NCBI GenBank assembly: GCA_002170775.2
Contig: NHIP02000003.1
Span: 221,776-271,404 of the forward strand
Direction of reading: 5' to 3'
DNA length: 49,629 nt
Source: Euryarchaeota archaeon TMED192
Lineage (GTDB): Archaea; Thermoplasmatota; Poseidoniia; Poseidoniales; Thalassarchaeaceae
Part shown: piece by piece, positions 31,048 to 34,506 of the stretch
How the letters are laid out: the number at the start of each line of letters is the position of its first letter
Position numbering within the stretch: the stretch's first letter is position 1
Notes under the pieces: generated by a model
Databases searched by the model: none
Told to the model about the DNA's origin: nothing
What the model saw: the letters and a program-made list of their open reading frames with translations, nothing else
Made by a program: the position numbers and the translations under genes

Positions 31048-32640
31048 ATGGCCAAGCATAGGGCGGGAAATCGACGAATCATTAGCATTAGCATACCGGA
31101 AGATCTAGCGATCAAACTTGATCGTAGAGTTGGAAAGGGACGTTCGAAGGGTCGATCTGCGACCGTATCTCGTTTGATAGAACAGAGTTTGGAAGGTAAT
31201 ATCTCCCCGCCCACCTCAGTTCCAGCTGCTCCTCTGAATGGAAGTTTGCCTGGAAACACTCGAAAAGAAATTGACTCTCTTGGTGTAGTCGATGTTCCCG
31301 AAAATGCATACTATGGGGCCCAAACGGCTAGATCGCTTGTCAACTTCGATATTGGTTCGGACATCATGCCGCGGTCGATGATACGAGCTTTTGGTCTCCT
31401 GAAACAGGCTGCTGCAAGGGCTAATGTCGAATTGGGGGATCTAGATGAAGAAATAGGAAGTCTGATTTCTAGAAGTTGTGAAGAGGTCATTTCAGGTTCA
31501 CTAGACGCACATTTTCCACTTCGTATATGGCAAACAGGTTCGGGAACTCAGACAAATATGAATGCCAACGAGGTTGTCTCTAATCGATCGATAGAAATGT
31601 CAGGAGGAGTCATAGGTTCGAAAGTCCCGGTTCATCCCAATGACCACGTAAATCGTGCTCAATCGAGCAATGATACGTTTCCAACTGCGATGCACATAGC
31701 AGCAGCGGAAGAAATCCATCATCGATTGATACCGGCGGTCAGACATCTCTTGGAACAATTGGACGACCGGCGGAGAGCGTTCGATCACATTGTTAAGATC
31801 GGCAGAACGCACCTCATGGATGCCGTTCCTCTTACTCTCGGTCAAGAGTTCTCAGGATATGTCTCAATGCTCAATGCAGATGTTAGTCGCTTAATCCGGG
31901 CGAAGGAGTCTTTGCTCGCTTTAGCGATCGGAGGGACTGCCGTTGGAACAGGGCTGAACACAAGAAGGAAATTCTCGGGATTGGTATGTGATCAAATTTC
32001 TGAAGAGACGGGATTATCATTCTACCCTGCTGAAAATAAATTTGCTGCGCTGGCAGGCCATGATGCTCTTCTGGAAGCTTCAGGGGCGATGGCAGGCCTT
32101 GCTTCCACGGTCATGAAGGTCGCGAATGATATCCGATGGATGGGATCTGGGCCCAGATCCGGATTCGGTGAATTGTCATTACCAGAGAATGAGCCCGGCT
32201 CCAGCATAATGCCTGGAAAGGTGAATCCTACCCAGGCAGAAGCCATTACGATGGTTGCATGCCAAGTTATTGGTAACCACACAGCGGTGACTGTGGGAGC
32301 GAGCCAGGGTAATTTTGAGTTGAACGTGTACAAGCCGATGATAATACACAATGTGTTGCACTCCTGCAGGCTTCTGACAGACTCTTGCATTTCCTTTGCA
32401 GATAAATGCGTGATCGGCCTAGAGGCCAATGAAGATAGGATCGGCGATTTAGTTGAAAGGTCCCTGATGCTAGTGACAGCATTGAATCCTCACATCGGAT
32501 ACGATAATGCAGCCAAAATAGCAAAGTATGCTCATGAAAAGGGGATTACTCTGAAGGAATCTGCCATAAAGTTGGACATGGTCACGGCAGAGGAATTTGA
32601 TAATTGGGTCAGACCAGAAGATATGATAGGGCCGAAATGA
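31048..32640 (+). CDS. fumC: Class II fumarase with N-terminal ribbon-helix-helix domain
   Basis: The C-terminal 460 residues are a complete class II fumarate hydratase interconverting fumarate and malate: [68 protein letters not shown] and the signature [16 protein letters not shown]. Ahead of it, residues about 9-50 look like a CopG-type ribbon-helix-helix domain: strand RRIISISIP, helix [12 protein letters not shown], helix [14 protein letters not shown], then a Pro/Ser-rich linker to about 70. Frame continuity and an AT-rich promoter directly before this ATG show that the extension is part of the gene; the next in-frame ATG lies inside the fumarase. The bacterial precedent for an RHH domain on a metabolic enzyme is PutA. 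DNA binding is inferred. Confidence 0.9.
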
Positions 32641-32699
32641 CGGTGCTAAGCATATCACTCAGAAAGACGGTCATAAGACACTCCTTCATCCGAAATGAT

Positions 32700-33360
32700 T
32701 GATAGTCTGTTTGAGGGGACCACAAAGCGTCCGATTGGACAAGGTGGGAGCAACAGGGGGCTTGCCTATGGGGGAGCGAACCCCCTGCTGACTCCGCGGT
32801 TGGGGTTCACCCGGGCCCTAAGGCCCGGGTGTTCCCGGGTAGATGATTTGGGCGCTCGTTGTCCGCCTTCACCATTCGCCGATTAGGACGAAGTCCCCTT
32901 CGTCTTCACCGTATCCGCTTTTAGTCCTCAGATAATGTCCCTGATTTCCTCAGCGTCCGATGCCAGTCCTCCACGGATCTCTCCGCTCTCGTCCCTGGTG
33001 CGTTTCTTTCCCGTGTTTTACTCCGGTTCTTTCCCGCACTACGCTTCTAGGATTGTCTCCTCCCCCTTCTGCATTGCACCTCTTCGGGATAGTTTTCTGA
33101 TTCGGTTTGTGTTTTCCCCCCGAAGGGTTCGGTTGCGTTTTCCTCAGTTTCCTCCTCAAATTTGCTCTTCTTTCTTGCGTCAGAATTGCTCTTTTGTGGT
33201 TCTCCCGCATCCTTGTCACCCACAAGCAACAAGGTGTGTCCCCGACTTTTTACGGCCGGTTTCACCGCTCCGATCTCTTGGATCGGTTTTTGTGGCCCGC
33301 GGGAGGTGCCGAAGCCCTCCCACACCACTCCCCCGGAGCGGCAAAGTCAACAGGGTAAGG
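32700..33360 (-). ncRNA. Candidate large structured noncoding RNA
   Basis: The 783-bp gap 32641-33423 lies between convergent genes and has no credible protein. The minus strand is purine-rich and holds many stable hairpins: 33301-33321 (GGGAGG arm, C-UUCG-G loop), 33270-33286 (CCGATC/GATCGG), 33211-33234 (CCTTGT/ACAAGG), 33115-33126 (CCC-UUCG-GGG), 32887-32904 (7 bp, GNRA-type loop GGGA), 32808-32831 (10 bp), 32754-32787 (CAGGGGG/CCCCCTG). The last two are enclosed by 32737-32742 with 32859-32864. Stable UUCG and GNRA loops occur only when read on the minus strand, which sets the orientation. A possible end-to-end pairing (CTGTT with AACAG) closes a molecule of about 650 nt. I could not match RNase P RNA (no conserved core text), SRP RNA or rRNA. 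Confidence 0.4.
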
Positions 33361-33366
33361 GGTAGT

Positions 33367-33375
33367 CCATAAACC
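33367..33375 (-). promoter_or_regulatory. TATA-like box before candidate RNA
   Basis: On the minus strand GGTTTATGG follows the purine-rich AAGGAAA, which could act as a BRE. A start about 25 nt further would fall near 33345, just before the first hairpin of the candidate RNA. The match is weak. Confidence 0.3.
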
Positions 33376-33423
33376 TTTCCTTGATATTGGAGCAGTCCAC
33401 TGGAAATGGGGGTCGATAACCCC

Positions 33424-34506
33424 TTATTTCTCTTCCAAGGAATTGTTCTTATCTCCAAATCTTAACATTCTAAGGCGTGCTCTAATCAAAGAGTCGTCGT
33501 CTTCTGAAAATTCTGATTTAGTGATTCTCCTCTTCAGAACATTCGTTTCCAAAAGGAGGATTTCTCCGTTTAGACAGCCCAACACTGTTCTATCCAAATG
33601 GCTGTGCACTACCGTTATCTCGTTGGTATGAGTCCAGTTCATTCGCATTTTCCCAATAGAGATCACGCCGGATAATTCGGGTTTCTTCATAGCTAACAAA
33701 GTCATCTCACCAGTGCTAGTGAGATATTGTGGAATGCCTTTCAATTGCTCGAGTAGGGGTTCTGTGTTCTCAGCACCCTCATTTTGATTATATGTGATCC
33801 ATCTTCCATCATGCATGAATCCTGCCAAAAACACGCGTTTCACTGTATCTATAATCTTGCCATTCTGATCAATCTGGATTGCTTGGAAATCTGAAGTTGT
33901 GAAGGACATGTGGTTGTCGGCAGATGTAGACGAACGTGATATTGGGGCTCTAGGAGTGCCTTCGAGATGGTGCAAGACATCATTCCCGGTTTGTATGGTA
34001 TATATTCCTGGTTGGGGTCTCCCCAACCCCAAGATGCAGCCTTGACCAAAGGCGTCTAATGTCCATGCTTTCGATTTCAAGGGGATCGATTGTTCGACTA
34101 TCCCCTTGCGTGGTTCGATTCGCATAATTCGGCATGCCACGTAATCTTCGATTTCAATCTCGTAAACAGAAGAAGTAACCCATAGCGATTGGCCGTCAAA
34201 TACAACGAGATCGCATGCACCGTCTACCGGGATTGACCAAATTAACGTGCCATCATCGGAATTAACCGCTGTTATGGATGCCCCGTGCGCAATCGCTACG
34301 ATCGCATCGGCGAATGCGATAGACGAGACAGATGGTTCGAGATTGATTGACCAGAGAGGGGCTCCATCTGAAACAGACCAAGCGGATGCTATTCCTTCAG
34401 TATCTCCGGCGATGAAGGACTCGGCGTTCTGTTCGATGGTTGTGACGGAAGATTTGAGAGACCTGACCAATGAAGACAAATCTGAAAGACGAGCGTTGCT
34501 ATTCAT
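33424..34506 (-). CDS. Beta-propeller (PQQ/WD40-like) protein
   Basis: A 360-residue protein composed of repeated strands typical of a beta-propeller: AGDTEGIASAWSVSDGAPLWSI, AIAHGASITAVNSDDGTLIWSI and later similar units with D-G-x-x-x-W endings. It has no signal peptide or membrane helix. The C-terminal 40 residues are charged. This is likely a protein-interaction scaffold; no catalytic motif is seen. It ends at the edge of the 783-bp noncoding region, and it is 15 bp downstream of the M32 carboxypeptidase gene. Confidence 0.65.
   Translation of the reverse strand: MNSNARLSDLSSLVRSLKSSVTTIEQNAESFIAGDTEGIASAWSVSDGAPLWSINLEPSVSSIAFADAIVAIAHGASITAVNSDDGTLIWSIPVDGACDLVVFDGQSLWVTSSVYEIEIEDYVACRIMRIEPRKGIVEQSIPLKSKAWTLDAFGQGCILGLGRPQPGIYTIQTGNDVLHHLEGTPRAPISRSSTSADNHMSFTTSDFQAIQIDQNGKIIDTVKRVFLAGFMHDGRWITYNQNEGAENTEPLLEQLKGIPQYLTSTGEMTLLAMKKPELSGVISIGKMRMNWTHTNEITVVHSHLDRTVLGCLNGEILLLETNVLKRRITKSEFSEDDDSLIRARLRMLRFGDKNNSLEEK

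Follow-up and report, generated by a model that had tools for sequence, protein, structure and literature searches.

The minus strand of the gap between two convergent genes of a planktonic marine archaeon very probably encodes a large structured noncoding RNA, and what we claim here is this RNA gene together with its anatomy. A first-pass annotation of the DNA had proposed a large, structured, archaeal RNA of about 600-650 nt on this strand, and homologues, covariation, and fold energies all support the proposal. To our knowledge, the large noncoding RNAs of archaea are essentially rRNA, RNase P RNA, and SRP RNA. The RNA described below is larger than the RNase P and SRP RNAs, is sharply bounded at both ends, and matches no family of Rfam 15. 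Most of an order of abundant planktonic marine archaea has retained it, although it is missing from some genera. RNAs of this kind have often been found to act as regulators or at the core of cellular machines. Because the target is gene-sized, with a defined promoter, relatives that have an empty site, and a viral counterpart, its expression, partners, and role are directly testable.

Locus and coding potential

The DNA analyzed, referred to as the window (49,629 nucleotides), comes from a Poseidoniales (Marine Group II) genome, where it is part of contig 12; g1 denotes the genus of the window, f1 its own family, and f2 the sister family within the Poseidoniales. The gap (32641-33423) lies, as first described, between convergent genes, fumC ending at 32640 on the plus strand and a beta-propeller gene ending at 33424 on the minus strand, the latter being upstream of the RNA and codirectional with it (Table 1). 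Ahead of its lyase domain, the fumC ORF has about 80 additional N-terminal residues (31048-31290), which appear ribbon-helix-helix-like by eye and had no Pfam match.

The two gap ORFs that were tested had no Pfam match, and the candidate frames showed no codon-position bias among seven congeners. In a 145-aa antisense ORF, substitutions were spread evenly over the codon positions (45, 48, and 41 of 137 each), and the spread was similarly even in the sense ORFs; the long ORFs on the plus strand result from the purine-rich opposite strand. The gap, described in the first-pass annotation as carrying no plausible protein, thus holds no conserved coding frame, as expected for a structured noncoding RNA, and a check for a conserved protein on the minus strand found none.

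Table 1. Features of the RNA locus, in minus-strand order, with positions in the window
Feature	Position	Strand	Basis
Beta-propeller (PQQ-like) gene	33424..34506	-	Weak PF13360 match, below cut-off; same neighbor in relatives
Putative archaeal promoter, BRE/TATA-like GAAAGGTTTATGG	33367..33379 (TTTA 33370-33373)	-	Fixed spacing to P1; TATA-like element conserved in alignment
Large structured noncoding RNA gene (very probable)	32730..33346	-	Homologues and covariation; both ends inferred
P1, 5' hairpin GCCGCUCC-GGG-GGAGUGGU	33324..33342	-	99.3% of cells paired in 19 sequences of both families; three pairs with double changes
P2, UUCG-loop hairpin straight after P1	33299..33323	-	All three basal pairs with double changes; apical stem redrawn per genus
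P4 hairpin (CCGAUC/GAUCGG) and 5' strand of P5, GCGGU	33264..33286	-	g1 consensus
P7 hairpin	33211..33234	-	Six of nine pairs with double changes in the genus; also across genera
P8 subdomain, including C-GCAA-G hairpin CUGACGCAAGAAAG, a type repeated in other genera	33085..33207	-	Compensated pairs within and across genera
P9 subdomain (GGUGC...GCAUC), three branches including GCGGA/UCCGU	32959..33080	-	Compensated pairs across genera
P10 and P11 hairpins, GGGA loop on P11	32880..32955	-	Double changes in g1 in 7/10 and 8/12 pairs; also across genera
P12 and P13 hairpins; P13 is a 10-bp CACCCGGGCC/GGCCCGGGUG helix with a 3-bp outer part	32803..32875	-	P13 invariant in g1
P14, conserved 3' module: GGAG...hairpin...CUCC, then CA	32745..32795	-	22 copies, both families
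fumC (fumarate hydratase)	31048..32640	+	PF00206 and PF10415; convergent neighbor; same neighbor in inspected relatives

Promoter, extent, and strand

In nearly all readable homologues, TTTA and P1 are separated by exactly 27 nt, and in two by 26 nt, while in a few f2 members no TATA box was recognized by the script. The usual archaeal spacing between TATA box and start puts the transcription start at about 33346, just ahead of P1, where the 5' end of the RNA would accordingly lie. The 3' end probably falls at about 32725-32745, just beyond CUCCCACC. Among the homologues the 3' motif CUCCCA occurs 481-921 nt past the start of P1 (598 nt in the window), and T-rich DNA follows it in many members. 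A promoter conserved at a fixed spacing is indirect evidence that the RNA is transcribed from its own TATA box, and, as far as sequence can tell, the constant 27-nt spacing gives it the promoter expected of a separate noncoding RNA gene. Because the RNA is downstream of the beta-propeller gene on the same strand, it could instead be a structured 3' untranslated region or terminator of the beta-propeller mRNA, with no gene of its own. This reading is very improbable in our judgment: the TATA box stands at its fixed 27-nt spacing, the 5' module begins at this promoter and not at the stop codon, and a virus carries the promoter and P1-P2 away from the beta-propeller gene, as described below.

The first-pass annotation had chosen the minus strand from its strong hairpins with two C-UUCG-G loops and a GGGA loop. 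These loops are present there, and the fold energies are stronger on this strand than on the antisense. For the single sequence, comparison with 20 dinucleotide shuffles gave z = -4.89 for the minus strand and z = -2.61 for the plus strand, which places the hairpins beyond chance. Within-genus alignments, computed for five of ten genera, gave z values of -18.5, -7.9, -9.5, -13.3, and -7.2 on the minus strand and of -11.1, -3.6, -4.6, -4.9, and -3.8 on the antisense, the minus strand being always the stronger.

Covariation and anatomy of the RNA

The consensus structure of seven g1 sequences has 164 pairs, and 39 of these showed compensatory double changes, compared with 18.0 (sd 2.7) in shuffled and 2-7 in slid controls. 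In the 5' module (19 sequences, both families), double changes were found in 6 of 11 pairs versus 1.4 after shuffling. In the 3' module P14 (22 copies), they affected 8 of 20 pairs and 50 cells, the shuffled mean being 17.1 cells and the slid controls 0-6 cells. The least circular of the tests took the structure derived from g1 alone and counted changes in 44 sequences drawn from six other genera, in a cross-genus alignment built from sequence only. Here 43 pairs combined pairing of 85% or more with a minimum of two double changes, versus 1-9 in slid controls, the mean pairing was 0.77 versus 0.35-0.43, and the double-change cells numbered 1052 versus 336-443. Covariation among relatives, on whose presence the original proposal had been made to depend, is thus strong, and the homologues carry the compensatory changes expected of a structured noncoding RNA. 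A covariation test over all pairs with a tree-based null returned one pair at E < 0.05 (52 sequences, low power), as expected when the deep clades are few and the middle aligns poorly.

The two end modules are conserved, while the middle varies among lineages. Compensation across genera was seen in P9 (pairs 270-385, 311-346, 351-382, 363-372, 364-371, and 365-370) and in the P12/P13 region (474-502, 481-495, and 511-544). P5, which would close the central domain, is invariant within g1, and its pair 81-549 is the only one that covaries across genera. For g1, a 3-bp GGG/CCU contact is predicted to join the 5' module to the 3' end; it never varies, and covariation is hence uninformative about it. 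Covariation support is accordingly small or nil for P5 and for this end-to-end contact; in the modeled fold the ends of the RNA would meet in space. The helices noticed at first at 32754-32787 and 32808-32831 fall inside P14 and P13, respectively. However, the GGACAA/TTGTCC helix that had been drawn to enclose them is not supported, because the g1 consensus pairs this stretch locally (GGCG/CGCC) and a local hairpin is found there in other genera as well.

Two further observations concern variation among the homologues. A small module, CYGGAC-GCAA-GGAAGG, made up of a GNRA hairpin and a GGA/GAA internal loop, recurs in L012, L015, L010, and L016 and was apparently inserted at several points of the RNA middle. 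In genus g3 (L143, L144, and other genomes), a second 3' module lies about 330 nt further on; there, either the RNA may be longer or part of it may be duplicated in tandem.

This anatomy bears on two possible functions. A ribozyme, with the conserved modules as catalytic core and the middle as periphery, would suit the large size and the conserved unpaired purine stretches beside the core helices; we nevertheless consider it unlikely, as no known family matches, the most conserved parts are the end hairpins, and nothing hints at a substrate. The short, sequence-conserved, and apparently unpaired motifs could also belong to a regulatory or guide RNA that acts by base pairing, for example through GUAGAACC or the tail past CUCCCA. 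We give this possibility little weight: no C/D or H/ACA family of Rfam matched at a meaningful score, CUCC is paired in P14, and known archaeal guide RNAs are far smaller than the present RNA.

Distribution among the Poseidoniales

The gap DNA matched 20 of 40 relatives, and the extracted loci lie between the same two genes; wherever the flanks were inspected, the homologues were found between convergent fumC and beta-propeller genes. By searching with these two neighbors, a diverged version of the RNA with no DNA match was reached in the same gap of g2, g5, and the f2 genera g15 and g17. A covariance model of the 5' module matched 148 of 319 Poseidoniales genomes, mostly in single copy, and these represent 14 of 22 genera, namely all 11 of f1 (g8 weakly) and three of f2. 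A 3'-module model built from divergent members matched the same loci and confirmed g8 (E ~1e-8). The 5' model gave no match in 21 genomes from the rest of the class or in eight f2 genera, and those of the eight that were tested more sensitively had no 3'-module match either. In f2 genera that lack the RNA, the 3'-module model gave weak matches (E 0.17-4.8), which we regard as noise. The absence from eight f2 genera indicates that the RNA is not indispensable to the order. In one genome without it (G032, genus g16), fumC directly abuts the beta-propeller gene, apparently forming an empty site.

An exact 20-base pattern of P1 was found in 58 stretches among 84,980 species genomes. All except one stand under Euryarchaeota, Marine Group II, or Poseidoniales titles (57/58), and the remaining one is labelled Acidimicrobiaceae; Candidatus Thalassarchaeaceae is also among the names in the titles. 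The contig of the latter (L207, Acidimicrobiaceae bacterium RS349) holds the RNA with MGII peptidase and beta-propeller neighbors, and its bacterial label looks like a binning error.

A partial counterpart on a virus contig

The exact P1 pattern was also found at position 64174 of a 72-kb IMG/VR contig, IMGVR_UViG_3300007514_000005 (L231). A TATA box lies 26 nt upstream of P1, approximately as in the cellular homologues, the R1 match has E = 2.9e-7, and 24 of 24 bases over P1 are identical to a genus g10 host. The contig carries genes for a terminase, a portal, a clamp loader, and a GroEL-like chaperonin, and from these it is likely to be a tailed archaeal virus. P2 can be drawn at the matching place, the sequence beyond P1-P2 differs, and the viral RNA past this point has an unremarkable fold energy (z = -0.7). 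Judged from these comparisons, the viral version appears to be a partial counterpart of the host RNA, consisting of promoter and P1-P2 only on an otherwise different sequence. In the virus contigs, two looser promoter-plus-P1 patterns found the L231 contig only, and two other patterns gave zero matches. The 3'-module pattern gave eight matches in the virus contigs, none with a recognizable P1 in the 1,400 bases upstream, and these were treated as chance. BLAST found no match to the RNA among phage or plasmid records, nor to the viral copy among phage records.

Known RNA families

Rfam 15 scans with gathering and permissive thresholds (up to E = 10 for the gap and E = 0.5 for 11 homologous loci) gave no convincing match, and sub-threshold matches were taken as chance. 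The archaeal RNase P (RF00373) and archaeal SRP (RF01857) models found nothing in the gap at E ≤ 10, and the OLE, GOLLD, and ROOL models were not among the matches of the gap (E ≤ 10) or of the 11 loci (E ≤ 0.5). RNase P, SRP, and rRNA being the usual large RNAs of archaea, a diverged relative of one of them might be suspected here, but this is exceedingly unlikely: the RNase P RNA (G000:C12:11967-12264, E = 1.2e-73) and the SRP RNA (G000:C5:21088-21395, E = 4.3e-35) of the same genome are located elsewhere, and no rRNA or other Rfam model matched. The first-pass annotation had recognized none of the three and had asked for an Rfam scan that might reveal an ordinary RNA; the scan bears it out, with no confident match. 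In another genome bin, two RNase P RNA matches (G010:C10 and G010:C28) were observed, possibly owing to contamination. A search of the open literature, with subscription papers and supplements outside its scope, found no description of the RNA.

Possible role and comparison with known RNAs

We propose that the RNA would be trans-acting and read from its own TATA promoter on the minus strand. It very probably folds into a many-branched particle with a conserved 5' module (P1, P2, and P4), a lineage-variable middle, and the conserved 3' module (P14). The middle is built of stacked hairpins with GNRA or UUCG caps, joined by purine-rich symmetric loops, and would form a variable body, while the end modules would serve as a platform binding protein or RNA partners. 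By analogy, the RNA may be the scaffold of a ribonucleoprotein, much like RNase P, SRP, or OLE RNA. Of the roles considered we favor this one, and regard it as quite possible, if somewhat short of probable. The viral promoter with its version of P1-P2 would, speculatively, fit a mimic or user of a host partner. In its widest form the proposal is tentative and on the doubtful side: the RNA would be a new class of large archaeal RNA and the core of a ribonucleoprotein (or an RNA-only particle), and the virus would have taken over the promoter and 5' module as a means of copying, occupying, or redirecting the host particle.

An RNA-only assembly would need no dedicated protein: like GOLLD or ROOL, the RNA would build a cage or other oligomer by self-association via loops and A-minor contacts. 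Several features speak for it: a length of 481-921 nt between P1 and the 3' motif, numerous GNRA and UUCG hairpins, conserved ends with a variable remainder as in GOLLD, a virus contig that carries a related 5' part, and the fact that OLE, GOLLD, and ROOL form homo-oligomers. We still think it rather unlikely, since no Rfam match to GOLLD, ROOL, or OLE was found and the RNA is chromosomal and syntenic, not mainly phage-borne.

As a candidate ribonucleoprotein scaffold, the RNA resembles RNase P RNA and SRP RNA in being a large, single-copy, structured archaeal RNA, but this genome encodes both of them at other loci, and the gap matches neither of their models. GOLLD and ROOL are large, many-hairpin noncoding RNAs without assigned function that were found in phages and prophages, and GOLLD has one conserved end region with a less conserved remainder (PMC12286853). 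The present RNA is similarly large and rich in hairpins, and it recalls GOLLD in the contrast between a conserved end and a variable rest; however, whereas GOLLD and ROOL are bacterial and phage-borne, it is archaeal, chromosomal, and syntenic, and both of its end modules are conserved. OLE RNA, a structured ribonucleoprotein component of about 600 nt that is chromosomal in bacteria (PMC9723947, PMC12286853), is alike in length, structure, and chromosomal location, but it belongs to Gram-positive bacteria, has other neighboring genes, and its Rfam model has no match in the present RNA. Finally, Tan1 is a 229-nt abundant noncoding RNA of Candidatus Thalassoarchaea that reportedly ranked fifth in RNA-seq (PMC5069720). 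It comes from the same archaeal group (MGII), its function is likewise unassigned, and its predicted structure is complex, but it has 229 nt as reported versus about 600 for the present RNA, the two being compared by description only. There is a real, though minority, chance that Tan1 is a fragment of the present RNA; in that case an earlier study would have caught sight of the transcript, but the extent, structure, and distribution of its gene would be new.
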